Shown here one piece after another: positions 2,985 to 19,394 of a stretch of 64,000 bases of DNA. The stretch comes from Enorma burkinafasonensis. Its GTDB lineage: Bacteria > Actinomycetota > Coriobacteriia > Coriobacteriales > Coriobacteriaceae. The translations under genes were made by a program, and so were the position numbers. Where the stretch lies: positions 1 through 64,000 of the forward strand of contig NZ_LR597508.1 in assembly GCF_902150035.1 (NCBI RefSeq). The letters run 5' to 3'. The notes beneath the pieces were generated by a model. The model was not told the DNA's origin and did no database searches. It was given only the letters and a program-made list of their open reading frames with translations. Numbering within the stretch: the first letter of the stretch is position 1; each line of letters begins with the position of its first letter.

Positions 2985-3809
2985 TCATGGCCTAAAGACA
3001 TCAACAAAGGCGCCGGCAAATGTTTCCCAGAACGGCACAGGCTCCTTTGCTCGTCGTGAGAGCTTCTTGATTAACGCATCTATCCGAGTTTTTAACGATG
3101 TTCGTTGCCTGTTGAGTTCGTCATACAGACCGCTCTCTCTAGATAACGATTCGATTTGCTGCGCAAAGGTGGGAAGGTCATCGTAGGACCCAGGATTTAT
3201 GGTCAGCTCGTGCTCGTAGGGGTTTCGATCGTCATGGAATGTCAGGTAGCCTCCTGACCCCAATGCGTCCTCGATACGTTTACCAATTCCAGGCTGTAGG
3301 AAATAGAAAAGTCTTGAGCTTATACCGGTCGTGTAGTTTTGTCCGTCATTTGCTTTAAGCCTGCGGTACTTGCGTCCACGCCCGTCATTGCTGGTATCGA
3401 TTGGTGCCTTGAACAGGCTTTCGTTAGATGCTATCGCATCAAATAGACTGTCGTAATAACGCTCGACGTCATATCCAAACTTCAAGACGTCTCGCTCAAG
3501 CTCCAGCGCTTCATTGAAGAGCCTAGCCTTTATATACACCGAGTTGCCTTCGTGCTCCATCTTCTTAACTGGAGGCAGGTAGTGTGTCTCCCAGCCAATA
3601 TGATGCTCTTCGTATTGCTCCCACCGCCTTGGGTAGATATCCAGCCGCTCTTTCAAATCCTGAAAATGTACGAGCAATGACCTGTACATTTCCTGGAGTC
3701 TCTGTCTGTCGGTCTGGTTCTTGCCCGACTTTACGCCAAGGACAAAAGTCACGAGAGCCGCGATCAGGCTTGCCACAAGCCCAGCGAGGAATGTTGGCCA
3801 ATCAATCAA
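2985..3809 (-). CDS. Membrane-anchored protein of unknown family, last gene of the AbiH operon
   Basis: A 274-residue protein with an N-terminal membrane helix (about residues 8-27, LAGLVASLIAALVTFVLGV) followed by a basic stop-transfer and a soluble, largely helical domain. That gives a C-in membrane-anchored topology. No catalytic motif is recognised. It starts at a TTG (3809) inside the end of the AbiH gene, with an 8-bp overlap and GAGGGGAG upstream, so it is translationally coupled to AbiH. Codon use and GC are lower than in the core genes, as for the rest of this operon. A role as sensor or partner in an abortive-infection system is inferred from coupling alone. Confidence 0.7.
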   Translation of the reverse strand: MIDWPTFLAGLVASLIAALVTFVLGVKSGKNQTDRQRLQEMYRSLLVHFQDLKERLDIYPRRWEQYEEHHIGWETHYLPPVKKMEHEGNSVYIKARLFNEALELERDVLKFGYDVERYYDSLFDAIASNESLFKAPIDTSNDGRGRKYRRLKANDGQNYTTGISSRLFYFLQPGIGKRIEDALGSGGYLTFHDDRNPYEHELTINPGSYDDLPTFAQQIESLSRESGLYDELNRQRTSLKTRIDALIKKLSRRAKEPVPFWETFAGAFVDVFRP

Positions 3810-5289
3810 CCTGAACTCCCCTCAGAATCAGCCGCCCCTCGAGCAATAGCTTGTGCATGAGATTCTGGCCGTGGTCCTTGTTGTCCATAGTTGCACCATA
3901 GTCAACCAAGAGGTCGTTTATCGAGTTGGCGAGACCATTTCGCCAACTCTCATTATTTTCCTCGTCGGAGCCGTCGTATGGGTAGTAGAACACGAGCACG
4001 GTCTTGCTCTCATAGAGGTCGACACCGTCAAAGATAGACTGGAAGTATGAGTAGTCAGCCTTGCCAAGCGAATGACCGTAGAACTTGATGACGTCAGTGG
4101 CTCCTTGCAGGTTGGCACTGTTCGCAGTTCCGATCAGTTTGTCTGTACGAGATCCGCCGCGCCGCATGAGTCGGAACGTCTTAGTGAACGACACAGCATT
4201 TGGATTGTCCATGCAGTCCTTGCCATCGATGCCGATAATAATCTCTCCGCCTAGCTTTCCGTGTATGTTTACGAACGCGCCGTCCTCGCCACCGTCAAAG
4301 AAATGCCCGATGAGGTCAGTGTAGTTGAAGCTCAGGACAGAGGTTGAAGAGTAGTAGTCGTCGCCCGCTTTCTTACCGTCGCGCTCAATCGCCTGGTATA
4401 GCGTCTTGCTTTTTTCGGCGTATTCCTCGTTGGTCTCAACCTCTTTTGCAAGGTATTCGCTAAAAGCTTGCTCAAGCTTGAAGAGCTCCTGGCGTAGGAA
4501 GGCCATAAACTTCGCGTGGTTGTAGCCCTCGCTTGCAATTTCGGGGTGCAGTGTCCAAGCATACCGGGCCATGTTGCCATACATGTGGTCTTCGTCGTCT
4601 TGCTCACATTCCCTACGCCCATTGACAAGAACGAATGCGCCGTCAGTGAAAGGGCAGCTCTTGAAGACTTCGACCGCCTTGTTAAAGGGTGACGGGGTCT
4701 TGGAGCCGGGTTTGCCGGCGGATAGCACCCATCGCTCGATGGTTCCTTCGATGTCGCACCAGAGGGAATCGATATTCGCCTCAAGAACGAAGTCCCAGAG
4801 CGTGAGTCCGGTATCCTCAACGAGCGTTTGCCATGTTTCGCGCTTGCAGTCCGGGATATTGGCGATAATGTCAAAGCGAGGCTTGAAGAAGTCGCCGAAT
4901 TTCGATTTGAGCCCGCATTGCAGGTCGAAGCCATTGCCGATGATGATGAGCTGCCGCCAGTCGGTGCGGTAACCTTCCGCGTATGAACTCAAGTCGGGAA
5001 TGGTGTAGTTTGGTACTGCGTAGTCCAGGGCATCTAGACGCGGAGCTTCTGGCTTATCGAAGGTAAACGTCTCGGATGCGGCGTCGGTTAGAGATTTGAA
5101 CGCTCCAGCACTCTCAAGCGCCTTTGACACCCTTGCTCCGACGTCACTCAGCTGCGAGTTGCTGGCGGCCTTGCGCACCGCCTCGCTTAAAGAGCCGCCG
5201 ACTGCCCTTTGGGCCTCCTTGAATGCGTCAGAGTTGATTGCGGCACTTAGGCCGGAGATGTTTGGCACCTGCGCGTCATTAGTGCTCAT
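3802..5289 (-). CDS. abiH: AbiH-family abortive phage infection protein
   Basis: The 495-residue protein carries the signature motifs of the AbiH family (PF14253): a Rossmann-like nucleotide-binding start IIIGNGFDLQCGLKSKFGDF (residues 115-134), LSFNYTD (319-325), NIHGKLGG (341-348), and a C-terminal FYGHSLGKADYSYF (403-416). It has an unusual helical, Ala/Ser-rich N-terminal extension of about 110 residues before the core. Known AbiH proteins (from lactococcal plasmids) abort phage infection by an unresolved mechanism. The ATG lies 1 bp after the stop of the 809-residue gene, and its end overlaps the membrane protein gene, so three genes form one translation unit. AbiH usually acts alone, so this packaging is notable. 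Confidence 0.85.
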   Translation of the reverse strand: MSTNDAQVPNISGLSAAINSDAFKEAQRAVGGSLSEAVRKAASNSQLSDVGARVSKALESAGAFKSLTDAASETFTFDKPEAPRLDALDYAVPNYTIPDLSSYAEGYRTDWRQLIIIGNGFDLQCGLKSKFGDFFKPRFDIIANIPDCKRETWQTLVEDTGLTLWDFVLEANIDSLWCDIEGTIERWVLSAGKPGSKTPSPFNKAVEVFKSCPFTDGAFVLVNGRRECEQDDEDHMYGNMARYAWTLHPEIASEGYNHAKFMAFLRQELFKLEQAFSEYLAKEVETNEEYAEKSKTLYQAIERDGKKAGDDYYSSTSVLSFNYTDLIGHFFDGGEDGAFVNIHGKLGGEIIIGIDGKDCMDNPNAVSFTKTFRLMRRGGSRTDKLIGTANSANLQGATDVIKFYGHSLGKADYSYFQSIFDGVDLYESKTVLVFYYPYDGSDEENNESWRNGLANSINDLLVDYGATMDNKDHGQNLMHKLLLEGRLILRGVQVD

Positions 5290-5290
5290 G

Positions 5291-7720
5291 TCATCGCCTT
5301 CCCGCCTCAGGCAACGCCATTTTCTTCTTGCTTGCGGCCTTCAACGATTTCGTGAGCTCGTCGCTGCTACGCCGCATGAACTTTAGGCTCCGATTCAGGA
5401 TCTTGATCATCTTCTTCGGGCTGATCTCTTCCTTTTCGTCGGTCCCGTCGTCATCGTCCTCGGGAACCTCGTCGTCTGGCACCCCGCGCTTTATCGCCTC
5501 AATCTCCACTTCGAGTTCGACTATCCGCTGGTTCAGCGCGGCATGGATCTCCGCAACGGATGCGCGGTCTCCAAATCGCCCGATGAGCACCTCCTCGCAG
5601 AAGGCAACGAGCTTGGCGCACTCGTCCAATACATAGCTTCCGTTCGTGGCGAGCGCCATCGACGTCGCCGCCGAGACTCCGGACCCGCCGACAGCGCCGA
5701 TTAGCGCGCCTCCGCCGGCTATGAGCATTGTCCCTCCTGCCATGCCTGCGCCACCGGCTGCGATCGCCCCGCCGCCGAGGAACGCGAGGCTGGCACTTGT
5801 AAGCGCGGCGCCGTGTAGCGCAGCCGCTTCGAGCCCGAGCGCGGTCGCCAAAGTGGGGGCGATGGCTGGGGCGAAGTAGAAAGCGAGTCCGCCCGTCGCC
5901 ACCACGACGATAACCGTGCCGGCAGCCCCCACGACGCGCTTGGTCACGGCGCCATCAAGCCTTCCGCGCGCACCGTTCACCGCCTTGTCGAGCTTCGCGA
6001 GCTCCTTCTCGCTCACAACACTCTGGCGATCGCAGTACACCTCTTCCAGATAGCCACTGCCAAGCTTGAGGCCCTTGTAGAGCTTGTCGTTGTCACCGTG
6101 CAACGGCACGTAGGGCCTAAATCGCTTCGCCTCCATCGCGACCAACCACAGCCATGAGTCGTTTGCGCTGTTTTCAAGCCGCGCCATGATGGAATCATAG
6201 ATGGCGTCATCACCCAGGAAGTATCCTGCGTCTGCGACCCATACGAGGCCCACCGCCTCGACGACCCTCTCGCCCCACTCCTTGAGCCAGGCACGCTTCT
6301 TTTCGGCTCGCTTCGGATGTTTCTCGGCTGCAATGTCGTATGCAACCAGGGCGTACTCGATCGAGTGCAGGATGCGCGCCTGCATGAAGTCGAGCTTGAG
6401 GCAGCCCAGCTCAGAGATGCCACGTTCGTACGCCTCTTCTGGGCTTTCACCTTCATCGAGTTTCTTGTCATCCAGAGCCGCCCGGACATCAACAACGCAG
6501 GCGATAACAAAGGTGGCCACACCAACGTAGTTCACGCGCAGGAAGAAGGTGATCGGGTCCTTGCTTTTGATGGCGCGTACTGCTGCGTCTGCGATGTCCA
6601 CGCCGGTGAAGACGCCGCTCGAGACGGTAACCATGCGGCGCATGGCGGGCGTACCCCAGGGGAGTACGTCTTCTGGCGCGATGCGCTCGAGTTCTGCAAT
6701 GCCCGTGATCTTGAGGTCTCGGATCTCGCGAGCCAGCCTGCGGCAGAAGTAGAAGCCGCGCACGACGCACTGGTTGATGAGCACGGGTATCGTCTGCCGG
6801 CCTATCTCGCCAAGGATGCCGATCTCCGTGCGCAGGTCGAACTTCTTGACGCTGTCCTTGATGATCCTGCCGCTCTCGTCATGATCGGCGAGCAGGGTGC
6901 CATTGAAGAGTTTGGTCACCCACAGGCGGAAACCCATGTCTCCGTCGCCGGCATCCTTGAAGAACGGAAGCGCCGAGAGCTCTTTCATGAACGATACGAG
7001 AGGGCCTGGGATGCCGGTGCCGCCCATGAGGGATCCGCTCGACCCCGCCATGTCGCTCACCATGTGGAAGAACCAGCCGATAGCTCCAAAGGCGATCTTT
7101 TCCTGGAAGTTCTTGCCGATGCATGCCCTATGCGACTCGGGCACTGGCACGACATGCAACGCTCCCGCCTTGTCGGTCCCCACAACCAAGCCAGTGAACT
7201 GCGTGAATATCGAGAAGAACAGTCCGCCGATACTGAAATGGTGAGAGAAGTCGCGCAGGTGGTGCTGCAGCCCTCCGCCGAAGTCGTTCGTGTTACCGTC
7301 GGCAGCGAGTGGATGGTTCTTCTCCAGAGTCTTGATGGCGTCGTTGAGGTCGTCCCCGGTGTATCCCTCCACGCGGGCTACTTTCATCACGACCTTTTCT
7401 ATCTTGTCTTTGCCCCACTCGCTTGCACGATCGAGGGAGAACTCGCCCACGTAGAAGACGTCGATGAGGCCTGCGAGTACGCCGCTGCTGACGGCGACGA
7501 TGCAGTCGAGCTTGTCGGCTTCGTCTATATGTGGCTCCCACTTGATGTCGTCCTCAAGCGTTTCGGTCGGGCCAGCGAAGATTTTGCTGGCATACGAAGA
7601 GCCTCCAAAGGCACCGGCCCCGGCTACGAGGAGCTTCGGCTTCTTTTGGAAGGCAATCTCGTATTGGATGAGCGGGCTGTCGTCATCCGGGTAGAAAGCT
7701 GTTGCGACTGTGTTGTCCAT
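5291..7720 (-). CDS. 809-residue glycine-zipper membrane protein, unknown family
   Basis: A large protein I do not recognise. Residues about 596-629 are hydrophobic, and 645-690 form a Gly/Ala-rich glycine-zipper-like segment (LAFLGGGAIAAGGAGMAGG, then LIAGGGALIGAVGG), typical of pore or membrane-inserting regions. A histidine-rich patch sits at 153-161 (HHLRDFSHH). The C-terminus has a coiled-coil followed by a very acidic linker (DDEVPEDDDDGTDEKEE) and a basic end. The gene begins 15 bp after the DUF262 gene and ends 1 bp before AbiH, so it is the central member of the operon. A membrane-acting effector triggered by its neighbours is a reasonable but unproven guess. Confidence 0.65.
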   Translation of the reverse strand: MDNTVATAFYPDDDSPLIQYEIAFQKKPKLLVAGAGAFGGSSYASKIFAGPTETLEDDIKWEPHIDEADKLDCIVAVSSGVLAGLIDVFYVGEFSLDRASEWGKDKIEKVVMKVARVEGYTGDDLNDAIKTLEKNHPLAADGNTNDFGGGLQHHLRDFSHHFSIGGLFFSIFTQFTGLVVGTDKAGALHVVPVPESHRACIGKNFQEKIAFGAIGWFFHMVSDMAGSSGSLMGGTGIPGPLVSFMKELSALPFFKDAGDGDMGFRLWVTKLFNGTLLADHDESGRIIKDSVKKFDLRTEIGILGEIGRQTIPVLINQCVVRGFYFCRRLAREIRDLKITGIAELERIAPEDVLPWGTPAMRRMVTVSSGVFTGVDIADAAVRAIKSKDPITFFLRVNYVGVATFVIACVVDVRAALDDKKLDEGESPEEAYERGISELGCLKLDFMQARILHSIEYALVAYDIAAEKHPKRAEKKRAWLKEWGERVVEAVGLVWVADAGYFLGDDAIYDSIMARLENSANDSWLWLVAMEAKRFRPYVPLHGDNDKLYKGLKLGSGYLEEVYCDRQSVVSEKELAKLDKAVNGARGRLDGAVTKRVVGAAGTVIVVVATGGLAFYFAPAIAPTLATALGLEAAALHGAALTSASLAFLGGGAIAAGGAGMAGGTMLIAGGGALIGAVGGSGVSAATSMALATNGSYVLDECAKLVAFCEEVLIGRFGDRASVAEIHAALNQRIVELEVEIEAIKRGVPDDEVPEDDDDGTDEKEEISPKKMIKILNRSLKFMRRSSDELTKSLKAASKKKMALPEAGRR

Positions 7721-7735
7721 ACCAGCTGTGCCTCG

Positions 7736-9613
7736 CTAAAAATCAATGTCATCGAAAGTGAATGCCTGTAACGCGAGTTCAACAAGCTTCTCGGTTCTCG
7801 CTACAATCTGTTCCTTAGTCCAGCTGTCCGCGCCAACAAGGTCGTCGTTGAGGTTTAGCCCGTTGCGGTAGCCAACGTTCGCGCCGTTCGAGTCTTTGCG
7901 GTCGCGTTTCTCGATGAAGGGCATGTTGCTCAGCTTCGAGTTGTAGCCGGTGATGGTCAGGTTGCCGAGGGTGTGGACGTGCGCGGCCTGAATCTCCTGC
8001 GCCTTTGTCTTGTCTCCGCCGCCAATCATGTCCACCCAGCTGGCAGGTATGTTCTCACCCTGCGGGAACACGTGCTCGATGGTCCACACGTAGTTGCCCG
8101 ACGGATAGCGCTCCCAGAGACCCTTCATCTCCTTGGTAACGCTCGGATCTGCGAGCACGGTGAGAATGTAGCGCGTCATGTCCGGGTTCACGTCGTATAT
8201 CGGACCTTCAAGGCGCTCCTTGAAGGTCGCGTCGCTCGCCGACACATCGACAAGCCTCTGCTTGATGTACCGGGCAACTTCCACGCCCCTTATGCTCTCA
8301 TCCTCGATGCCCTCGCATATGCTGATGAACAGTCGCTCCAGGTCGCGGGTGGGCGGCGTGTCGGTCACGTTGCGTCTCACGAAGAATCTCACGAGAAGCG
8401 CCACGATACCAGATATCAGGACGTCGTCCAAGCCAAGCTCCGGCTTCCTCTTCATGAGGTAGAGGAGCATCAGGTAGGAAGGGACGCCCTGTGCGCGCGC
8501 GATCTCCACGAGCTGCCGCTCGAGCCCGCTGTCCATGCCCTCGCGGTCTACCCCGATGATCTGCGAGTAGATAGCCGAGTTGCAGATGAGTTCGTCAAGC
8601 ACGCCGAGCGCGCCAGGATCCTGCCCAATCCTCTTCTCGTAGATCTTGAGCAGGTTCGAGCGGGTGGCCACCGAGCCGAGCGGCAGCTGCGCGCCTCCCT
8701 CCTGTACGAACGGCCTGTTAACATCGCGTCTGAAAGCGTCGTAGTTCTGTCGGAAGAAGCGCTCCTGCGTGGCGTAGTCGTCGCCGAGGTTGCGCAGCAC
8801 CTCCTGCCATTGCTCGAAGTAGTAGTCGAGCTCATCCCCGTCTGCGTCCGCCACCTTGGCGAGAAGCGTGTTCTTGATCAGATCCACGGCGGAAAGGGGG
8901 ACGCCACGGTTGTTCAGCGACGCGAACAGCGTGTACGCGTCAGCATGGCTGTCGACGTTGATCTGCACGAGCACGGCGGAGCAGAGCAACCTGCTTTTGT
9001 CTAGCAAGGTGTGCACAGCATCGTCGTCGCCCATCCCAGCGATCTCACCGCCGAGCCTGTCATAGAAGTATTCGAATGCCTTTGACATCTTGCGCACGCC
9101 ATGGTACTTAGGTCGTTGCATCACGACGGCGAGTCCGGCGCGCTCCTTGAGGATCCAGCGGTAGTCGTCCTGGTTGTGGTTCTGAACCTGAGGCACCACG
9201 CGCGTCATGCCCTTGTTCGACTTGAGGACGAGCCTGTTGCGCAGCGGTCTGATGTCGTCGAGCTGCATGTCCTCGTCTATGGCGTCTGGGTGCTCGTTGA
9301 TGCGGGCGTACAGCGCTGCGAGTAGCAGGCTGATGGTAGTAAGCCTCTGCTGGCCGTCGATGACTTCGAACTCCACTATGTTGGTTTTCGGGTCGATCTC
9401 GCCCTGGATGACGATGATGGATCCGAGGAAGTAGTCTGGGTCATTGTCGAAGACGTCGTCGTAGAGGTTCGCCCAGTCTCGCTGGCCCCATGTGTACTCA
9501 CGCTGGTAACGGGGTATGTTGTAGACCTTCAGCGCATCGGTTGATAGGATGCTTGCTACGGAGGGATCACTTACGTTTTTGATCATCTCATCCCGGCTCT
9601 CGTTATACGGCAT
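7736..9613 (-). CDS. DUF262/DUF1524 protein, GmrSD-like type IV restriction family
   Basis: A 625-residue protein with an N-terminal DUF262 (ParB/sulfiredoxin-like) domain: IPRYQREYTW at 33-42, YFLGS at 61-65 and the hallmark DGQQRLTT at 86-93. At the C-terminus is a DUF1524 HNH-like nuclease: IEHVFPQGENIPASW at 512-526 and HTLGNLTITGYNSKLSN at 547-563, supplying His and Asn. GmrSD, BrxU and SspE use this pair to cut modified or unmodified phage DNA in an NTP-dependent way. I start it at the ATG at 9613; an internal ATG ten codons later is possible. It is first in the operon with the glycine-rich protein, AbiH and the membrane protein. Confidence 0.85.
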   Translation of the reverse strand: MPYNESRDEMIKNVSDPSVASILSTDALKVYNIPRYQREYTWGQRDWANLYDDVFDNDPDYFLGSIIVIQGEIDPKTNIVEFEVIDGQQRLTTISLLLAALYARINEHPDAIDEDMQLDDIRPLRNRLVLKSNKGMTRVVPQVQNHNQDDYRWILKERAGLAVVMQRPKYHGVRKMSKAFEYFYDRLGGEIAGMGDDDAVHTLLDKSRLLCSAVLVQINVDSHADAYTLFASLNNRGVPLSAVDLIKNTLLAKVADADGDELDYYFEQWQEVLRNLGDDYATQERFFRQNYDAFRRDVNRPFVQEGGAQLPLGSVATRSNLLKIYEKRIGQDPGALGVLDELICNSAIYSQIIGVDREGMDSGLERQLVEIARAQGVPSYLMLLYLMKRKPELGLDDVLISGIVALLVRFFVRRNVTDTPPTRDLERLFISICEGIEDESIRGVEVARYIKQRLVDVSASDATFKERLEGPIYDVNPDMTRYILTVLADPSVTKEMKGLWERYPSGNYVWTIEHVFPQGENIPASWVDMIGGGDKTKAQEIQAAHVHTLGNLTITGYNSKLSNMPFIEKRDRKDSNGANVGYRNGLNLNDDLVGADSWTKEQIVARTEKLVELALQAFTFDDIDF

Positions 9614-9977
9614 ATGGTTTCGGTTGGTTTGATATGGAGACGGGCTTTCCTTACCCTTCGAGTTGGATTCGGATTCGACGAGAAGGGGAGACCCAAGATG
9701 AATCTTATCGCACCGGGCACCGTCGCTGCGTTCCGATTCGCCTTCCTGGAGCTTCTGAGGGAGGAGCCATCCAACATCGCCGCGCTTGAAGGGGCGGCCG
9801 TGGTCCTGGTTCCTGGGTGCGGTCATCATGCCGAAATTGCTCGCATTTTGATACACGCGGTGCTCAAAAGCCGGTGAGGACTGCAGATAATAGTCGGACG
9901 CCTGAGGCGTCCGGACGGAAGGTTTGCATGTTCGACAGGGACGATGTGGAGCTGGCACTGGCGGAGGGATGCTAATC
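9614..9977. other. Divergent intergenic region with an 8-bp hairpin
   Basis: This gap lies between the DUF262 gene (leftward) and the broken regulator (rightward). Open frames exist on both strands, but none has a recognisable motif or good ribosome site. A perfect hairpin, cggacgcc (9895-9902) and ggcgtccg (9906-9913), with a TGA loop, is the only structure I can point to here. Promoters for both directions must lie in this gap or next to it. Confidence 0.35.
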
Positions 9978-11525: not shown

Positions 11526-12076
11526 GCGCTATCTTGCTAGAGACGCCTGTTTTTCCGCGGCATGCGGGTTGCCGTCGGAAAACGCCGTCTGGCAGAGGGG
11601 CGTTGAGTTCATTTTGAGTTCAATTCGGACACGCGAAATGCGCTCGACATCGTTTAATGGTGAGACGACGGTACACCACGCAGACGAGAGAACATGAAAA
11701 TGCGCGGTTTGATTACCGAGCAGAAGTAAGTGGGTTATAAACAATCCACTGCAAAAACCTCCCTCACCGATGGCTGTGGGGGCGCAAGGCTGCCGAAGTG
11801 AGGTGCATTTGGACTGACGGTAGCAGCGTGCGCTTCTGTGGTCGCGGGAACCGCCATGGAAAAGGTTAAGCCAATGACCGAAGGTGGCGCGATGAGCGCC
11901 AAGGGCGATCTGTGATGGATGCTTGCGCCGGCCTCGTTGGGAAATCCGGCTTCGCCATGCGACAGTTTGAACACATGAGGCGAGTGATTGTTCGTCGCAA
12001 GGCCGACCGATAGGAACCGATCGAACTGTCTGCCGTTCTAGACTTCTTCGTCGGCGCATCCTATGTGCGTCCGTAT
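11526..12076. other. Gene-free stretch with terminator-like hairpin and a dispersed repeat
   Basis: An imperfect hairpin (gtttttccg at 11548-11556 with cggaaaac at 11575-11582) follows the broken regulator and may be its terminator. The first copy of a ~127-bp dispersed repeat lies at 11600-11725. The rest, to 12076, shows no supportable gene; long minus-strand frames here lack ribosome sites and recognisable motifs. Confidence 0.4.
11600..11725. repeat. Dispersed ~127-bp repeat, copy 1
   Basis: It begins gcgttgagttcattttgag and includes acggtacaccacgcagacga. An imperfect second copy in the same orientation lies at 19214-19340 (my rough alignment suggests about three-quarters identity). The element starts with an internal gagttca direct repeat. 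The conserved part also reads as a similar peptide on the minus strand (SPL...MNSTP) in both copies, so it could be a decayed coding end. Identity is unknown. Confidence 0.55.
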
Positions 12077-12110
12077 ATAATTACTCAAGATAATTACTAT
12101 AGATAATTAT
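12077..12110. promoter_or_regulatory. Three 13-bp direct repeats before the MarR gene: probable operator/promoter
   Basis: ataattac recurs at 12077-12084, 12090-12097 and (as ataattat) 12103-12110, exactly 13 bp apart, in an AT-rich island that stands out from the surroundings. It ends 23 bp before the MarR start, so it likely combines promoter and MarR-type operator. Confidence 0.55.
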
Positions 12111-12133
12111 TTTTTGAGACGGAAGGAACAGAA

Positions 12134-12661
12134 ATGAACGGGCGCTCATTCAAGATGCTGATGGATACGCTGCGGCGCGCGCGTCGCATCGACGGCATGA
12201 TGCCGCAGCTGCCGCCTGACCTCACCAACGGGAGGACGCGCGTGCTCGACACGCTCTATGAGCTGGGCGGCTACGCCAAGGAAGATGCATCGAGGCGCCG
12301 CGCCGTGCGCGTGAGCGACATCGCGGACGATATGGGCGCCACGCGTCCCGGCGTGACGCGCATGGTGTGCGACCTCGAGCGGGATGGTTACCTGCACAAG
12401 TCTGCCAGCCCCACGGACGGCCGCGAGGTGTTGGTTGAGCTGACCGAACACGGTCTCGCTACGCATCGCGTTTGGTACGAGGAGGTCTACGAGTACACCG
12501 CCCTGCTTCTTGGCGAGGCGGGCGTGACCGAACATGACATCGAGGTGACGGTTCGGACTGTCAAGCGGCTGCTTGAGGTTGTAGGGGAGGCCGACCTCAC
12601 ACGCTGGCAGAACGAGCGCTTGGGCCGTAAGGCCGCGGCGTGCGGAAGTGCGGAGGAGTAG
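12134..12661 (+). CDS. MarR-family transcriptional regulator
   Basis: A 175-residue winged-helix protein. The recognition helix and wing read VRVSDIADDMGATRPGVTRM...DLERDGYLHKSASPTDGREV, the standard MarR pattern with the D-x-R wing motif (TDGRE). The flanking helices (about 1-45 and 115-165) would form the dimer interface. The ATG at 12134 follows GGAAGGAACAG. The MFS exporter starts 2 bp after its stop, so this is a classic MarR-exporter operon in which the regulator probably represses both genes through the AT-rich repeats upstream and is released by the exporter's substrate. Confidence 0.88.
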   Translation: MNGRSFKMLMDTLRRARRIDGMMPQLPPDLTNGRTRVLDTLYELGGYAKEDASRRRAVRVSDIADDMGATRPGVTRMVCDLERDGYLHKSASPTDGREVLVELTEHGLATHRVWYEEVYEYTALLLGEAGVTEHDIEVTVRTVKRLLEVVGEADLTRWQNERLGRKAAACGSAEE

Positions 12662-12663
12662 GA

Positions 12664-14073
12664 GTGGATGATAGCCGGAAGCTGCCGCGGCGCGTCGTCG
12701 CGTCCGTGATTGCGGCGGGCATCATGTCCTTTTCGGGCGTGGTGGTCGAGAGCTCTATGAACGTGACCTTTCCGTCTCTCATGCGGGAGTTCGGCATCGA
12801 TACCGCGACGGTTCAGTGGATTACCACGGGCTATCTGCTCGTGCTGTCGGTCATCATCCCCATGTCTTCGTATCTGCGTCGGCGCTTTACCATGCGCGCG
12901 CTATTCGTGGCGGGAGCCTCCTGCTTTCTGGCGGGAACGCTGACGGCGGCGCTGGCTCCCGCCTTTCCGGTGCTGCTCGCCGGACGCTTGGTGCAGGGCG
13001 TGGGCACGGGCGTAGCGCTGCCCCTCATGTTCAACATCATCTTGGAGCAGGTGCCGCGCAAGAACATGGGGCTTATGATCGGTATCGCCAACTTCATCAC
13101 CTCGACGGCGCCCGCCATCGGCCCGTCGCTCGGCGGCTTTCTCGTGAGCGTCCTAAGCTGGCGCGCGGTGTTCTGGGTGCTCGTGCCGCTGGTGGCTGCG
13201 TCGTTTGCCCTGGGCGCCGCCTGCATTCGGCAGTCGACGACGTCGGGGCGCCCGTCGCTCGACGTCTGCGGCCTCATCATGCTCGCTGTCGGGTTTGCCA
13301 GCTTCATCTTTGCCGCGAACAGCGCCTCGTCAGCCGGATGGGCGAGCCCGTCTGTGCTCGGCCTGTTCGTCGTGGCAGCTGCCGCGATCGCGCTGTTCTG
13401 CCGGCACTCCCTTGCCACGCCGGGTGCCCTGCTCAATGTGCGCGTGCTGCGCGACCCGGTGTTTGCCCTTTCGGTCGCGGGTATCCTCCTCGTGCAGTTC
13501 TGCACACTGGGGCTTGCGTTCCTCATCCCCAACTACGCGCAGCTGTCGCTTGGCATCGATGCGTTTACCGCGGGCTGCCTGCTGGTGCCCGGATGCATCG
13601 CGGGCGCCCTTCAGGCGCCGCTTTCGGGCATCGTTTACGATCGCTTTGGCGCAGGGCTTTCGATTATCGGCGGGTGCGTGGTCACGCTCGCGTCCACAAT
13701 CCTGTTCTTCGCGTTCGCGCCCACGCTTACCGGGCCGCTCATCGTTCTCTTCTTCGTGCTCTACTCGTTGGGAAAGGGGGCGAACCTGCCGGGTAACATG
13801 ACAAACGGCCTGGCGCACCTGCCCATCGAGCATAACCCGGATGGAAACGCGATCGTCAACACGGTGCAGCAGCTGGCGGGCGCGATCGGCACGGTGTTCG
13901 TCTCCACGATCGTCGCCAGCGCGCAGGCGATTGATCCTGCGCACATGGCCAACGCGACGGCCGCGGGCACCCAGCAGGCGTTTCTGCTGGTGGTCGTCTT
14001 TGCGGCGGCGGAAGCCGTCTGTGCGGCACTAATCTTCGGCGCTTTCAAGAATCGTACGCGTTCCGTGCGATAG
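12664..14073 (+). CDS. MFS multidrug exporter, DHA2/EmrB-QacA type
   Basis: About 470 residues with 13-14 hydrophobic segments. The motif-C-like stretch is GIANFITSTAPAIGPSLGG, the motif A region is around SYLRRRFTMRAL, and the early QWITTGYLLVLSVIIP is typical of DHA2 (14-TM) drug:proton antiporters. I start at the GTG at 12664, 7 bp behind GGAGGAG. An ATG 24 bp earlier would overlap the MarR gene and has a poorer ribosome site. The substrate cannot be read from sequence. The pairing with MarR points to efflux of a toxic compound, and a GC-rich hairpin ends the unit. Confidence 0.85.
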   Translation: MDDSRKLPRRVVASVIAAGIMSFSGVVVESSMNVTFPSLMREFGIDTATVQWITTGYLLVLSVIIPMSSYLRRRFTMRALFVAGASCFLAGTLTAALAPAFPVLLAGRLVQGVGTGVALPLMFNIILEQVPRKNMGLMIGIANFITSTAPAIGPSLGGFLVSVLSWRAVFWVLVPLVAASFALGAACIRQSTTSGRPSLDVCGLIMLAVGFASFIFAANSASSAGWASPSVLGLFVVAAAAIALFCRHSLATPGALLNVRVLRDPVFALSVAGILLVQFCTLGLAFLIPNYAQLSLGIDAFTAGCLLVPGCIAGALQAPLSGIVYDRFGAGLSIIGGCVVTLASTILFFAFAPTLTGPLIVLFFVLYSLGKGANLPGNMTNGLAHLPIEHNPDGNAIVNTVQQLAGAIGTVFVSTIVASAQAIDPAHMANATAAGTQQAFLLVVVFAAAEAVCAALIFGAFKNRTRSVR

Positions 14074-14121
14074 GCCGGCTTGCCGCCGGACCCTGGGCCC
14101 TCCAAAGCGCCGAGAAGAGCG

Positions 14122-14145
14122 CGGCGGGCGGGAGCGCGCCCGCCG
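14122..14145. terminator. 9-bp GC hairpin between convergent genes
   Basis: cggcgggcg (14122-14130) pairs with cgcccgccg (14137-14145) across a six-base loop, between the MFS gene and the convergent XRE gene. No U-run is present on either strand. Confidence 0.5.
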
Positions 14146-14170
14146 TCGTCATGCGCGCCCCTCGACCCGG

Positions 14171-14557
14171 CTACCCTGCGAAGAGGCTGCCCTGAGACAC
14201 CCCATAGATCACAACCAGGGCGAAGAGCGCCAGGACGACACCCCCGACGACGAGGAAAGCCCGCCAGGCCCGAAGCACCGCCTCCTTGCCCCGCTTCACG
14301 TCCGCGTAGATTGAGGAGATCTGCTTGTCGGACTCGTTGAGGGCGCGCACATCGCCCACGTCGATTCCCCGCACGAGCTCGTCCAGGCCGATCCCGTAGT
14401 AGTCCGATAGCAGGACGAGCCGCTGGAAGTCGGGGTACGACTGCCCGAGCTCCCATTTCGACACTGTCTGCCTCGAGACGCCGAGTTCGTACCCTAGCTG
14501 CTCCTGCGAGAGGCCCCGTTTCCTCCTGAGGTCGATGAGTCGGTCGTTGAAGTTCAT
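14171..14557 (-). CDS. XRE-family regulator with C-terminal membrane helix
   Basis: A 128-residue protein. Residues about 5-60 form a Cro/C1-type helix-turn-helix (LSQEQLGYELGVSRQTVSKW). A helical linker follows, and residues about 97-120 form a membrane helix (AFLVVGGVVLALFALVVIYG). The layout, an N-terminal HTH tethered to the membrane, is common in Firmicutes and Coriobacteriia for small regulators of nearby transporters. Start ATG at 14557, with AAAGGAAC upstream. No obvious partner gene remains next to it; the truncated MFS gene on the same strand upstream may once have been related. Confidence 0.85.
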   Translation of the reverse strand: MNFNDRLIDLRRKRGLSQEQLGYELGVSRQTVSKWELGQSYPDFQRLVLLSDYYGIGLDELVRGIDVGDVRALNESDKQISSIYADVKRGKEAVLRAWRAFLVVGGVVLALFALVVIYGVSQGSLFAG

Positions 14558-15028
14558 GGCCGTTCCTTTCGGTCGGTTTTCGCGGTCCGCGCCGCTTGGG
14601 CGCGAGACCATGGAACTGCGTGAGCGGCGCAGGAGCAACCAACAACGGTTGGCAATTCGTCAATCTAGCGCGGCATCGGGCCCGGTTACAGCTCTGTAGT
14701 CGCCGCGCTCGAACACGCCACGTTCGGCACCGAGCATTGCATCCTTCCGCTCGCGGCCTAAGGCGTCCTCATGCAGGTTGTCTCCCGCCATGCCGTTCCT
14801 TCCCATGGCTGCTGGCTGTAAGTTAACACTTGGCCAATCGACCGTTTTTTGAAGATGGTCAAAGAGTCTTTTCCGAGGGTTCCTTCAGCTGCTCGTCTGG
14901 GTGGGAGCCGAGGGGCGTTGGGTCTATGCTGCCATCGTTTTGCGGACACTGGCTCGAAGGATGATGACAACGTGAAGAGATAAGGGCTTTTTCTGCCTGG
15001 TTGCGTCGCGCCCGGCCCGTGTCCCTGC
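14558..15028. other. Gene-free stretch between XRE gene and MFS remnant
   Basis: I see no supportable gene. The sequence contains an AT-richer patch around 14820-14880 (aagttaacacttggccaatc) that may hold a promoter, but no clear -35/-10 pair could be assigned. The stop of the MFS remnant marks its right edge. Confidence 0.3.
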
Positions 15029-15208
15029 CTACCGCTTCCGATCGACCTTGCGCGGCAGGAGGATGGAGGCCGCTGCGCCGAGGGCGGAGACGGCGATCGC
15101 GGTCCCCATCGCCCCGGGTGCGCCCGGGCCGCTCGCGGCGCACATCGTCCCGACCACTGCCGAGGAGACGGTGCCGCCGAAGCCCCGGAAGAACATCGCG
15201 AGCGAGGT
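15029..15208 (-). pseudogene. C-terminal remnant of an MFS transporter, cut by the IS3-family element
   Basis: From 15208 down to the TAG at 15029 the minus strand encodes about 59 residues, TSLAMFFRGFGGTVSSAVVG...LLPRKVDRKR. This resembles the last two membrane helices and basic tail of DHA2-type MFS permeases (family pattern SLA.FFR.LGG..G.A). The frame is abruptly replaced by the left end of the IS element. No matching 5' part is seen to the right of the IS, so the rest has been deleted or lies elsewhere. Confidence 0.6.
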
Positions 15209-15265
15209 TGGATTGGCTACACTAGATTGGACAATCTGAAGAGGGGCGCGAGGGACGGGGGGGAC

Positions 15266-15553
15266 ATGAGGGACCCGAAGCACCCGAGGCACTTCACCGA
15301 CGAGTTCAAGAGGCAGATCGTCGGGCTGCACGACGCCGGCAAGCCCAGGCGCGAGATCATGGAGGAGTACGATCTCGGCAAGAGCACGCTCGAGCGCTGG
15401 ATCAAGTCGATAAACGCCACCGGCTCGCCGCGGGCCGCGGGCAACAGGACGCCCGAGCAGGACAGGGTCATCGAGCTGGAGCGCGAGGACAAGAGGCTCC
15501 GTATGGAGGTCGACGTCCTAAAACAAGCGGCGCTGATATTCGCACGAAAGTGA
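15266..15553 (+). CDS. IS3-family transposase OrfA (helix-turn-helix)
   Basis: A 95-residue protein with an N-terminal HTH (FTDEFKRQIVGLHDAGKPRR...YDLGKSTLERWIK) and a C-terminal leucine-zipper-like helix (EQDRVIELEREDKRLRMEVD). This is the DNA-binding subunit of IS3-family transposases. I choose the ATG at 15266, behind GGGGGGAC; a TTG 39 bp upstream lacks a ribosome site. Its TGA overlaps the start of orfB by GTGA, the arrangement from which IS3 elements make an OrfAB fusion by -1 frameshifting. Confidence 0.85.
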   Translation: MRDPKHPRHFTDEFKRQIVGLHDAGKPRREIMEEYDLGKSTLERWIKSINATGSPRAAGNRTPEQDRVIELEREDKRLRMEVDVLKQAALIFARK

Positions 15554-16407
15554 CGGTGATAGCGGCTAACGCCGACCGCTACCCGGTATCAGCGCAGTGC
15601 GAGATCCTCGGCGTGCCGCGCTCCACCTACTACCACCTGCGCTCCCACCCGGAGACGCCGCCCGCGCCGGACCCCATCGAGCCCGACGTGCTCGCCGCCC
15701 ACGCGGAAAGCAGGGGCAGGTACGGGTCGAGGAAGGTCAAGGCGTCGCTCGAGCGACGCGGCATATCGGCGAGCCGAAGGCGGATCGCGCGGATCATGAG
15801 GGAGAACGGCCTCTCGAGCGCGTACGGGAGGAAGCGGTTCAAGGTCCACCCCGGCAAGCCGAACGAGGCGGAGCTGCCGAACCTGGTGGCCCGCGAGTTC
15901 GACGGCCGCGCGCCGCGCACGCACGTCTGCAGCGACCTCACCTACGTGCGCGCGGGCGGATCGTGGTGCTACGTCCGCCTGCTCGTCGACCTCTACAACA
16001 GGGAGATCGTCGGCCGCGCCGCGGGCAGCAGGAGGGACGCGCTGCTCGTCAAGGCGGCCTTCGCCACCCTGGAGTTCCCGATATCCGACATCGCGGTGTT
16101 CCACACCGACCGCGGCAGCGAGTTCGACAACGCCGAGATCGACCTCATGCTAGAGGCCTTCGGCGTAGAGCGGTCGCTCTCCGCCAGGGGCTGCCCCTAC
16201 GACAACGTCGTCGACGAGTCGACGAACAAGATACTCAAGGCCGGGCTCGTCTACAGGGAGAGCTTCCGGGACCTGCGCGACCTGCAGGCAGGGCTGTCCG
16301 ACTACGTGCACTGGTACAACAACCTCAGGATCCACTCGACGCTCGGCTACATGAGCCCCGTCGAGTTCAGGAAGGCGGGAATGCCCCTCTCAAAACCGTC
16401 CAAATAA
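15550..16407 (+). CDS. IS3-family transposase OrfB (DDE integrase core)
   Basis: A 285-residue rve-type integrase core. The first Asp is in CSDLTYV, the second in VFHTDRGSEF and the Glu in YDNVVDESTNKILK, so the DDE triad appears complete. An upstream HTH_21-like region (GRYGSRKVKASLERRGIS) is typical of IS150/IS3 groups. The C-terminus YNNLRIHSTLGYMSPVEFR is the usual end of the family. The frame is uninterrupted, so the element may still be mobile. The GTG at 15550 overlaps the orfA stop. Full transposase would be the OrfAB fusion. Confidence 0.9.
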   Translation: MTVIAANADRYPVSAQCEILGVPRSTYYHLRSHPETPPAPDPIEPDVLAAHAESRGRYGSRKVKASLERRGISASRRRIARIMRENGLSSAYGRKRFKVHPGKPNEAELPNLVAREFDGRAPRTHVCSDLTYVRAGGSWCYVRLLVDLYNREIVGRAAGSRRDALLVKAAFATLEFPISDIAVFHTDRGSEFDNAEIDLMLEAFGVERSLSARGCPYDNVVDESTNKILKAGLVYRESFRDLRDLQAGLSDYVHWYNNLRIHSTLGYMSPVEFRKAGMPLSKPSK

Positions 16408-16421
16408 ATGTTGCCAATCCA

Positions 16422-16616
16422 TTTGCCGGAAGGTAGGTTTCGGCGGTTAGGGGGGCGTCTTTTGTCAGAACGCGAATAGATGCCCCGTTAACGGGGGGGG
16501 GGGTTTCAACGACTGGACGCTATCGCGAGGTGGAGAACTACGGTAGTTTGCTGGCGCTAGCGAATGGCAGGATGGGATAATGGTGCATATGGGAATGGAC
16601 GGAATGCGAGGGCCAC
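16422..16616. other. Region upstream of PHP-ATPase with palindrome and G11 tract
   Basis: Within this gap ccccgttaacgggg (16483-16496) runs into a tract of 11 G residues (16493-16503) followed by TTT. Read as RNA this is a short hairpin ending near U residues. Homopolymers of this length are slippage-prone, and it lies 114 bp before the PHP-ATPase start. The rest shows nothing I can assign. Confidence 0.45.
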
Positions 16617-18689
16617 TTGAACAGAATCGATTTTCATATCCATACCGTTGAGACCGCCTCTGACTCTAGTGGTTTCAATTTCGATATTGAAGTTCTCAAG
16701 GACTATGTCGAGGGGGCTCATCTTGCCGCCATTGCAATCACCAACCACAATGGGTTTTACCGTGACAACTACGACCAGGTTTCAAAGGCGCTAGACATTG
16801 CTGTTTTTCCTGGTGCTGAAATTAATGTCACGAAGTTGAGTGGTTTTGGGCACGTCATTATCGTCGCCGACCCCGCCGACATAGACGTTTTTGCAAGCGG
16901 TATGGCCACTCTTGCGGGCGAATGCCCGGGCAGTAGCGACCACATGAGTTGGGAACGCGTTGTTGAGTTGTTTCCTAAGATCAGCAATTGGCTCATCATA
17001 CCCCACTACAAAAAGAGCAAGAAACTCGACTCGGCCACACTTTCTCATATACAAAGCACAACTGGCTACGACGCCCTGGAAGTAGCCAATGCCAAAAAAT
17101 GGCTCGTTGAGCGCGATGGGGCCGATGCACCGCTTGTGGTTTTCAGCGACTGTCGTCCCGGCTTACGCATGCCCGATGAAGATCCCGACGATAACATACG
17201 GCGTTATGCATACGGCTACACCTACCTACAGTGCAACGAAATGAGCTTTAGTTCGATCAAGGCGGCATTTGCAAACGCAAACAACGCTGAGATTTTCCCA
17301 GCAGACAGAGACTTTGAGATACTTCCAGAAGCACTGCCCGCATCGAGGCGCATGAACGTCATCCTTGGAGAGCGTTCCTCTGGCAAGACATTTACGCTTA
17401 AGCGGATTCTTGACGCCTATGAGCCCGAGGACAGGCTTTACATTGAGCAGTTCGAAATCACCAACAAAGCGAAGAAAGACATTTTCGACAAAAACGTTGC
17501 TGAAGAAGACAGCGTCTTTTTTGATAACTACTTCAACGCTCTACAAGATGCAATCAACCACTACACGCAGTTTGACCAGGGAGCCTGCGAAGATGCAGTA
17601 AGGGCGTATTGCACAGCTTTGGTTCAATTTGCTGCTGCACCGACCGACCGCTATTCCGAGCGGCCTATCTATAATGCTGATGAATATACATATGAAAAGA
17701 GCGACGCTGTCGAAGCGTCTGACGTGAAGCTCCGAAAGGCCGCGCGAGAATTGGCCGATGGTGGCAAACGACCCGATGTTGTCAAAGAATATGTCGACCC
17801 GAATACTCTTAGGGCACTTGATAGCAGACTACGCGAGCTTATGAAGCAAGCTCGTACTGCTCGGTGGCAGAAAAAGCAGTGCGATGCTGCAGTCGCAGAA
17901 ATAAAGAAAGAGTTGAGCAAGAAGTCGGCACGCAAGCCGCTTCCACAGGCCGATCAACTACGAGAGTACTTCAAGTATTGCTACCGAGAAAAGAGACTTG
18001 TGGAAGTCCTAGATGCACTCGCAGCGCCTCTTGATCTCAAATCTGATGAAGAATACAAATACCTCAAGAAGAGGACGCGGCAGATGCATTCGAACGCCAC
18101 TGAGGCGCGAAAAGGATGCGGGCTGACGTTGCCGAGCGGAACTGATGTGGCGGGTCTTTTCGGAGCCAAGGTTACGTCAGCTAAGAGACTCGCAGTCATT
18201 CGAAGCTTCGATGCTACTGTTCAAGCTGCGGCATGCCGTCTCCTGTTCAACATTAAAAGCAGAATTGTGCTCAACGACGAATCTAGTGCCGCGTTGTCTG
18301 GCGGACAACGCGCGGAGTATCTCCTTCTGCACCGAATAGCCGCCGCAGCGGGCAAAGATGTTGTGCTGATTGATGAGCCTGAGTCATCATTCGATAACCC
18401 GTTCCTTAACCACGATGTCATTACCCTACTCAACGACGTAGCCGAGCATGCAACGGTGTTTCTCGTGACACATAACAATACTCTTGGCGTCTCGCTTCTT
18501 CCTGATTGCATCATCTACACGGAGAAGACCAAGTCGGGAGAGTATCGCGTTTACTCCGGTGAGCTCTCTGCCACTAAGCTTATAGATGCATACGGAAACA
18601 CCTGTGATCGCAAAGAGGTGATGCTCGATACAATGGAAGCTGGACGCATCGCCTATCTTGAAAGGAGGACCCACTATGGACTTGCTTAG
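16617..18689 (+). CDS. PHP-domain/ABC-type ATPase fusion (TrlF-like), candidate defence protein
   Basis: A 690-residue two-domain protein. Residues 1-230 form a PHP phosphoesterase domain with metal ligands in order: HIH (7-9), ITNHN (41-45), GAE (66-68), FGHV (77-80), IPH (128-130) and FSDCR (176-180). Residues 240-690 form an SMC/ABC-type ATPase: Walker A GERSSGKT (251-258), a helical insert (about 300-540), signature ALSGGQRAEY (559-568), Walker B VVLIDEPESS (582-591) and a switch His (THNN). The layout resembles proteins named TrlF-family AAA-like ATPases. It starts at a TTG behind GAGGG and overlaps a small partner gene. GC is visibly lower than in neighbours, indicating transfer. A nucleic-acid-processing defence role is inferred. 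Confidence 0.75.
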   Translation: MNRIDFHIHTVETASDSSGFNFDIEVLKDYVEGAHLAAIAITNHNGFYRDNYDQVSKALDIAVFPGAEINVTKLSGFGHVIIVADPADIDVFASGMATLAGECPGSSDHMSWERVVELFPKISNWLIIPHYKKSKKLDSATLSHIQSTTGYDALEVANAKKWLVERDGADAPLVVFSDCRPGLRMPDEDPDDNIRRYAYGYTYLQCNEMSFSSIKAAFANANNAEIFPADRDFEILPEALPASRRMNVILGERSSGKTFTLKRILDAYEPEDRLYIEQFEITNKAKKDIFDKNVAEEDSVFFDNYFNALQDAINHYTQFDQGACEDAVRAYCTALVQFAAAPTDRYSERPIYNADEYTYEKSDAVEASDVKLRKAARELADGGKRPDVVKEYVDPNTLRALDSRLRELMKQARTARWQKKQCDAAVAEIKKELSKKSARKPLPQADQLREYFKYCYREKRLVEVLDALAAPLDLKSDEEYKYLKKRTRQMHSNATEARKGCGLTLPSGTDVAGLFGAKVTSAKRLAVIRSFDATVQAAACRLLFNIKSRIVLNDESSAALSGGQRAEYLLLHRIAAAAGKDVVLIDEPESSFDNPFLNHDVITLLNDVAEHATVFLVTHNNTLGVSLLPDCIIYTEKTKSGEYRVYSGELSATKLIDAYGNTCDRKEVMLDTMEAGRIAYLERRTHYGLA

Positions 18690-18972
18690 AATCAACGAGC
18701 AAGAAGGCCAGTTCCTCAAGAATGGCGTATGGATTCCGATATGTGATATTGAGCGAGATGACTTGCTTGAACTTATCAGGGCTGCAGCAAGTAACGACCA
18801 TGTCGGACTTGTCGAATGCAATGGGGACACCCCGATCAGGGATCCTATCTCTATGACTATTTACGAGCAAGTTTATAAGGCGCTGAATGACTTAGATGCC
18901 AATCGCGCAACCTACCTCGCTTCGATTGATGAAGAGTTCGACAGGCTCGAACGCGAATACGGTTTGACATAG
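18676..18972 (+). CDS. Small acidic partner of the PHP-ATPase, unknown family
   Basis: A 98-residue acidic protein starting at the ATG at 18676, 7 bp behind a strong AAAGGAGG, inside the last codons of the PHP-ATPase gene (14-bp overlap). That implies coupled translation and a fixed stoichiometric partnership. It has no membrane segment. The C-terminal third is helical and charged (DEEFDRLEREYGLT). I do not recognise the family. An inhibitor or immunity-like role or a subunit role are both possible. It shares the low GC of the upstream gene. Confidence 0.65.
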   Translation: MDLLRINEQEGQFLKNGVWIPICDIERDDLLELIRAAASNDHVGLVECNGDTPIRDPISMTIYEQVYKALNDLDANRATYLASIDEEFDRLEREYGLT

Positions 18973-19213
18973 CTAGAATCTTTGCAATCAGTGAGTTATA
19001 AGCATTGAAATGACGCTCGTGCAGAAACGAGGGGCTCGAGATTGGTGCGCTTTACAGGTCGGATTAGGAGAGTATTGGAGTTAACGAGGCGAGTCTATAT
19101 TAAGACGTAGAGCAACGTGCAAAATCAATAGTGCTGTTAGTTCGCAGAATGGGAAGAGCTGGCGGGCACAGGGGCTGATGTTTCGCACCCCCATTAATGG
19201 ATGAGCTAGATTG

Positions 19214-19340
19214 GCGTTGAGTTCATTTTTGAGTTCAACTCGAGATACAAAATGCGGCTGATTTCGGTTAATGGGGAGACGGCGGTACACCACGTAGACG
19301 AGAGGCCATGGAAGTGCACGATTAGACTACTGAGTGGGAG
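19214..19340. repeat. Dispersed ~127-bp repeat, copy 2
   Basis: It starts gcgttgagttcatttttgag and contains gcggtacaccacgtagacga, aligned over its length with 11600-11725 in direct orientation. The two copies bracket the MarR/MFS-IS3-PHP region, so recombination between them could delete or circularise about 7.6 kb. Confidence 0.55.
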
Positions 19341-19394
19341 TAGCCAAGTTAACGCGCTGATCGAACAACGCGAAAAGCGGTGCGTTACAAGCCG

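Follow-up and report, generated by a model that had tools for sequence, protein, structure and literature searches.

The window, that is, the whole stretch of 64,000 nucleotides of the Enorma burkinafasonensis contig NZ_LR597508.1 that was analysed, carries on its forward strand two overlapping genes, one encoding a protein of 690 aa with a TTG start (protein A, 16617..18689), the other a protein of 98 aa with an ATG start (protein B, 18676..18972); both are present in a single copy in their own genome. From the open reading frames of the window, the two genes share 14 nt (18676..18689, forward strand), the ATG of B precedes the stop of A, and B lies in the +1 frame relative to A, its start being read out of the codon of A Tyr687 (TATG). 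A Shine-Dalgarno (SD) sequence for B, AAAGGAGGA (18661..18669, forward strand; GGAGG core at 18664-18668), sits in the A codons for Glu-Arg-Arg. The TTG start of A is supported by the GAGGG directly 5' of it and by homologue alignment, in which residue 1 falls opposite the methionine of the other members. The small acidic protein starting inside the end of A, proposed in a preliminary description of this DNA, is borne out by the exact frames, by the pI of B (4.2), by the overlap and by the SD sequence; the same applies to the lower GC content of the locus, which is 0.498 for A and B together compared to 0.653 upstream and 0.667 downstream.

The AlphaFold model of A (pLDDT 85.7) predicts a PHP phosphoesterase domain (residues ~1-217) followed by an SMC/RecN-like ABC ATPase with a helical insert (residues ~230-690). 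In model comparisons, the PHP part aligns with the PHP phosphoesterases 2anu (Z 14.8, rmsd 3.3, 187 residues) and 3e38 (Z 14.8, rmsd 3.3, 199 residues), and also reaches Z ~13 with RNase AM and Pol III alpha; at Z 14.8, the predicted fold is that of the PHP superfamily. The ATPase part gives Z ~12 to ABC, UvrA and SMC heads, and its Foldseek matches include Wadjet JetC, RecN and AriA. Among 72 aligned homologues, the PHP residues H7, H9, H44, E68, H130, E155 and D178 are invariant (72/72); they include motif I, H7-x-H9 (16635..16643), and the ligand H44 of the TNH motif (16746..16748), all features of A being on the forward strand. Equally invariant are Walker A, GERSSGKT (17367..17390), the SGG of the ABC signature SGGQ (18297..18308), the Walker B residues D586-E587 within LIDEPESSFDN (18372..18377), the H-loop H619 of THNN (18471..18473), and D593 and T618, the motif set of an ABC/SMC-type ATPase (Walker A, SGG, Walker B, H-loop) being complete in A. 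The reading of A as a PHP-ATPase is thus upheld by invariant motifs, by fold matches to both PHP and ABC proteins and by the library match given below. The additional claim that all motifs are intact in one protein is correct for H7/H9/H44, Walker A, the signature, Walker B and the H-loop, but is slightly overstated, because the canonical last PHP motif, D-x-H, is replaced by D178-C-R180 (motif IV, 17148..17156), in which D is found in 72/72 homologues and R in 71/72, the remaining one having D-x-K. Given the fold and the presence of the other ligands, D-x-R is taken as a variation inside the PHP superfamily; from general knowledge of PHP motifs rather than from coordinates, R180 presumably stands where a metal-binding histidine is usual and, since this histidine is replaced, the PHP chemistry of A may be altered or weak.

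Both proteins are matched by models that PADLOC-DB 2.0.0 lists as a "phage defence candidate": A by PDLC04680 (PDC-M49A; E 8.3e-133, residues 1-688 of 690) and B by PDLC04682 (PDC-M49B; E 3.7e-10, residues 1-88). The two genes are adjacent and on the same strand, as required for PDC-M49, through their 14-nt overlap, and they agree with this system in gene content, gene order and full length of A; the pair is almost certainly a complete copy of it. Compared with other PDC-M49 members, the window pair is an outlier, with ~30% identity to most of them and an overlap of 14 instead of 20 nt. The suggestion that the two-gene form may be undescribed fails for its own clade, because PADLOC-DB already names both genes; it stands for two sister clades (see below), which none of the libraries used names. 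The library entry gives no mechanism, and no paper on PDC-M49, its function or its mechanism was found in the literature.

Several known systems resemble the pair in part. In the TrlF family (NCBIfam NF045780), as in A, a PHP domain precedes an AAA/ABC-like ATPase, but the similarity is weak (E 1e-15; 57.5 bits, below the curated cut-off of 350) and, in the Photorhabdus trl operon, trlF is accompanied by trlG (an AlbA/HATPase protein) and by the 79-aa trlR, not by B (PMC7554251). The single-gene system Ppl, which is a reported anti-phage system whose clear mechanism is not yet described (PMC13152194), shows the same order of PHP and ATPase domains, A scoring only 12.3 bits against NF042955, below the curated cut-off of 1000. 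PARIS (AriA-AriB) combines an ABC-type ATPase with a second protein, as does A-B, and AriA is among the fold matches of A; unlike in PARIS, the PHP domain lies within the ATPase protein A, and in PADLOC B matched PDC-M49B models only and no AriB. Finally, Wadjet JetC, RecN and Rad50-Mre11, which belong to complexes acting on DNA, share with A an SMC/RecN-like head and a helical insert, whereas in A the insert is short and a PHP domain takes the place of the Mre11 or Toprim-type nuclease; no CxxC, as in the Rad50 zinc hook, occurs anywhere in the A sequence.

The conservation of the pair was assessed by a scan of genome contigs with an A profile, which gave 194 relatives, the best 80 of them being kept; one viral contig and several plasmid and genome loci inspected in detail were added. 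Contig loci selected by similarity to A test the occurrence of A without B; B without A was tested by genome scans only. In all ~100 A loci inspected, the B profile (E 2.5e-21 on the window B) gives a single strong match, located at the 3' end of A, and no second one; in L119, A lies at a contig end that truncates B, and in L107 B is shortened. The search for the partner beside other PHP-ATPase genes, as well as that for homologues lacking it, which the preliminary description had named as evidence against a conserved system, thus speak for a conserved two-gene unit. According to record titles, the hosts comprise Coriobacteriia, Bacilli, Clostridia, Alpha-, Beta- and Gammaproteobacteria, Bacteroidota, Planctomycetota, Chloroflexi, Omnitrophota, Nitrospirales, Desulfobacteraceae and Giovannonibacteria. 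Among ~200 related genomes, A is present in five (G000, G198, G166, G022 and, as a C-terminal piece, G194), while the B profile, run on 198 related genomes, matched G000, G166, G022 and G194, all four with A; G198 is absent among the B-profile matches listed, yet its B is present in locus L033. In viral contigs, B alone gave no match and A matched one contig (L128); neither A nor its sister clade was found in phage records, and no E. coli homologue was found by DNA similarity to the Pseudomonas member. On these sequence comparisons, B looks like an obligate partner of A.

The geometry of the junction is conserved as well. In 82 loci the overlap measures 20 nt (67 loci), 23 nt (8), 14 nt (3), 26 nt (2) or 41 nt (2), all values being 2 mod 3, and B starts in a TATG context in 81/82, in nearly all cases within a tyrosine codon of A. 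A SD-like site precedes B in 58/63 non-Bacteroidota loci compared to 6/19 Bacteroidota loci, the motif set being loose and the latter figure maybe near chance; Bacteroidota make weak use of SD sequences. The idea that A Tyr687 is conserved solely as carrier of the B start was dropped: a partnerless TrlF/Ppl-type relative also ends in R-E-E-K-Y, so the tyrosine is probably kept for A's own sake too. Among the loci collected, L039 (G062:C17, ~5077-5300), in which the N-terminal part of A alone was matched, is probably a broken copy; in the Enterococcus faecium plasmid L042 (5992-8032), the annotation splits A, which may be frameshifted, into two overlapping ORFs and shows B whole, and many near-identical plasmids give the same two-piece match.

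Protein B is acidic throughout the family (median pI 4.8 over 82 loci, below 5.5 in 99% of them), and it is under strong purifying selection, with a dN/dS of 0.07 (median of 33 pairs, outside the overlap), the value for A being 0.09. Its model (pLDDT 90.5) predicts three strands, a helix, an acidic loop and two long helices. The invariant or near-invariant columns, in window numbering, are 1, 2, 4, 6, 27, 46, 58, 61, 63 and 95, with the consensus M, K, L, I, K, D, A, I, Y and Y; judged from the alignment, invariant polar residues are few and the set is not enzyme-like, in keeping with a regulatory or structural role as subunit. Among solved structures, no protein significantly related to B in sequence was found, no Foldseek match at E <0.001 was obtained for the model in the PDB and among viral models, and the best VIA-align Z was only 3.6, which by itself does not prove a new fold.

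Two more PHP-ATPase clades carry, at the same position, an acidic ORF of ~96-121 codons, with overlaps such as 17, 14 and 20 nt (2 mod 3) and mostly in the same frame; in a tree of 34 proteins, the three clades form separate, strongly supported branches. Clade 2 comprises L037, L038 and the Photobacterium plasmid L135, with overlaps of 17, 4 and 14 nt, respectively, L038, with an ATGA overlap, being the exception in frame. In clade 3, found in relatives of the same order, the A-proteins measure ~760-850 aa (one open frame 1012); the partner ORF starts at TATG with an overlap of 14-20 nt and a pI of 4.1-5.2 in 12/14 loci, and in the other 2/14 it is in the same frame with a different start. Neither clade is named in PADLOC or NCBIfam, their A-proteins matching PDC-M49A partly or weakly and their partners giving, against the same two libraries, no match or chance-level matches. 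Motif IV also varies: PDC-M49 has D-x-R, two members of clade 2 have D-x-K, and most clade 3 proteins have D-x-H. Compared across clades by hhalign, the partners reach probabilities of 1-4% (E 0.01-0.07), partly in register; with no homology detected at this profile level, they may belong to a single family that evolves fast or have arisen independently. In the one TrlF/Ppl-type relative examined (L136/L148, 895-900 aa), an overlapping ORF is absent. At L141 (1-2684, G060:C1), a TrlF-like PHP-ATPase with an open frame of ~873 aa is seemingly followed by a 108-aa ORF overlapping by 1 nt, a possible fourth partnered group. New here are the overlap signature in its general form and the two clades that had no name; with about even confidence, it can be proposed that a broad class of PHP-ABC ATPases, made up of three or more clades of which two are named in neither PADLOC nor NCBIfam, is marked by an acidic partner of ~100 residues whose start lies within the 3' end of the ATPase gene (in most cases at TATG), and that the partner is a new regulatory fold separating this class from the single-gene TrlF/Ppl.

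As for the surroundings, three genes on the reverse strand lie ~6.6-15 kb upstream of the pair, encoding AbiH (3802..5289; PF14253, 6.5e-22), a BnzB-like protein (Bunzi; 5291..7720; PDLC03834, E 2.5e-46) and a GmrSD-type restriction enzyme (7736..9958; PF03235, 4e-34, and PF07510, 1e-16; PADLOC Orf5/HEC-06). A C-terminal stretch of the BnzB-like protein resembles PDC-M09A, and positions 5871-9874, inside this group of defence genes (3802-9958), are 86% identical in G198. The 7.74-kb stretch 11601-19341, which contains a MarR-type regulator, an MFS transporter, an HTH gene, an IS3-type transposase and the A-B pair, is 99.3% identical to a stretch of G198, a genome of another family; direct repeats of ~130 bp (11599-11728 and 19213-19342, 79% alike) bound the shared stretch in both genomes. 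No integrase is evident inside it besides the IS3-type transposase; this repeat-bounded stretch looks like a mobile cassette.

Elsewhere, the A-B homologues are patchy and often located on plasmids. Their neighbours include McrBC-like genes (L035) and a GmrSD-like gene (L036), both identified by ORF reading, AbiH (L044), AlwI and TIR (L042) and BsuBI/PstI (L135); restriction, HEPN, GmrSD and DUF2130 families recur among 143 homologue neighbours, as raw counts with no control set. DUF2130, with 5/143 neighbour slots, is the commonest Pfam family there. Near several plasmid copies (Phaeobacter, Staphylococcus), no obvious defence gene was seen. The defence role suggested in the preliminary description is favoured by the genes upstream, by the restriction, McrBC-type, GmrSD and AbiH neighbours of the relatives, by the patchy distribution, plasmid carriage and near identity of the pair in another family and by the PADLOC listing, but no phage phenotype was found to match; from context and listing, the pair is probably an anti-virus defence system.

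The reading that we prefer, with a probability of roughly 0.55, is that B is a co-translated subunit regulating A, an ATP-gated PHP nuclease or phosphoesterase, in one direction or the other. The fusion of PHP and ATPase suggests ATP-gated phosphoester cleavage, and A would be an ATP-driven machine in which an SMC/RecN-like head bears a metal-dependent PHP phosphoesterase; B, as a small subunit dedicated to this machine, would arise in cis through translational coupling, its start lying inside the last codons of A. Such a coupled start would make B appear beside nascent A in a set ratio, and synthesis in cis would suit a protein that serves A as subunit or regulator, not an independent enzyme. 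B would bind A and hold or license it; a phage cue (DNA ends, replication structures or a phage protein) would be sensed by the ATPase and lead to an ATP-dependent rearrangement, after which the PHP site may cut nucleic acid or nucleotides, stopping the phage or the cell.

It can also be supposed that active A is toxic and that B is an antitoxin-like inhibitor keeping A off until a phage removes or titrates it: a small, strongly acidic protein, conserved with A only and apparently translated by coupling, has properties common among antitoxins and substrate mimics. This we regard as doubtful: antitoxins are usually in excess and often encoded first, while coupling from the end of A would yield about equal amounts at most; besides, the one TrlF/Ppl-type relative examined lacks an overlapping partner, so an inhibitor is not a necessity throughout the PHP-ATPase class. 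Less probable again is a role in DNA repair or housekeeping, with the pair acting as an SbcCD/RecN-like machine that uses a PHP nuclease, even though RecN, SMC and UvrA heads and the PHP domains of replicative polymerases are among the closest folds; a patchy distribution (5 of ~200 related genomes), recent transfer between families, plasmid carriage and the defence genes alongside argue against it. That B is not a gene at all, its frame being a by-product of the codon use of A, has a negligible probability: a 98-codon open frame could arise by chance in a single genome (~0.8% of shuffles of local DNA), but ~95% of B lies beyond A, it has its own SD sequence and start, and its conservation across phyla and the selection acting on it refute the idea of a mere by-product.

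Defence proteins of the PHP-ATPase type (Ppl, TrlF-like, PDC-M49) occur widely, and no described mechanism was found for them in the literature. The TATG overlap offers a simple sequence signature to find and sort the PHP-ATPase class; overlapping two-gene systems of this kind can be missed or truncated by gene callers and when genes are cloned singly. B is a ready partner for structural work and mutagenesis on A and, being apparently obligate and tightly coupled, would provide a handle on the mechanism of PHP-ATPases, in which A should not be tested alone.
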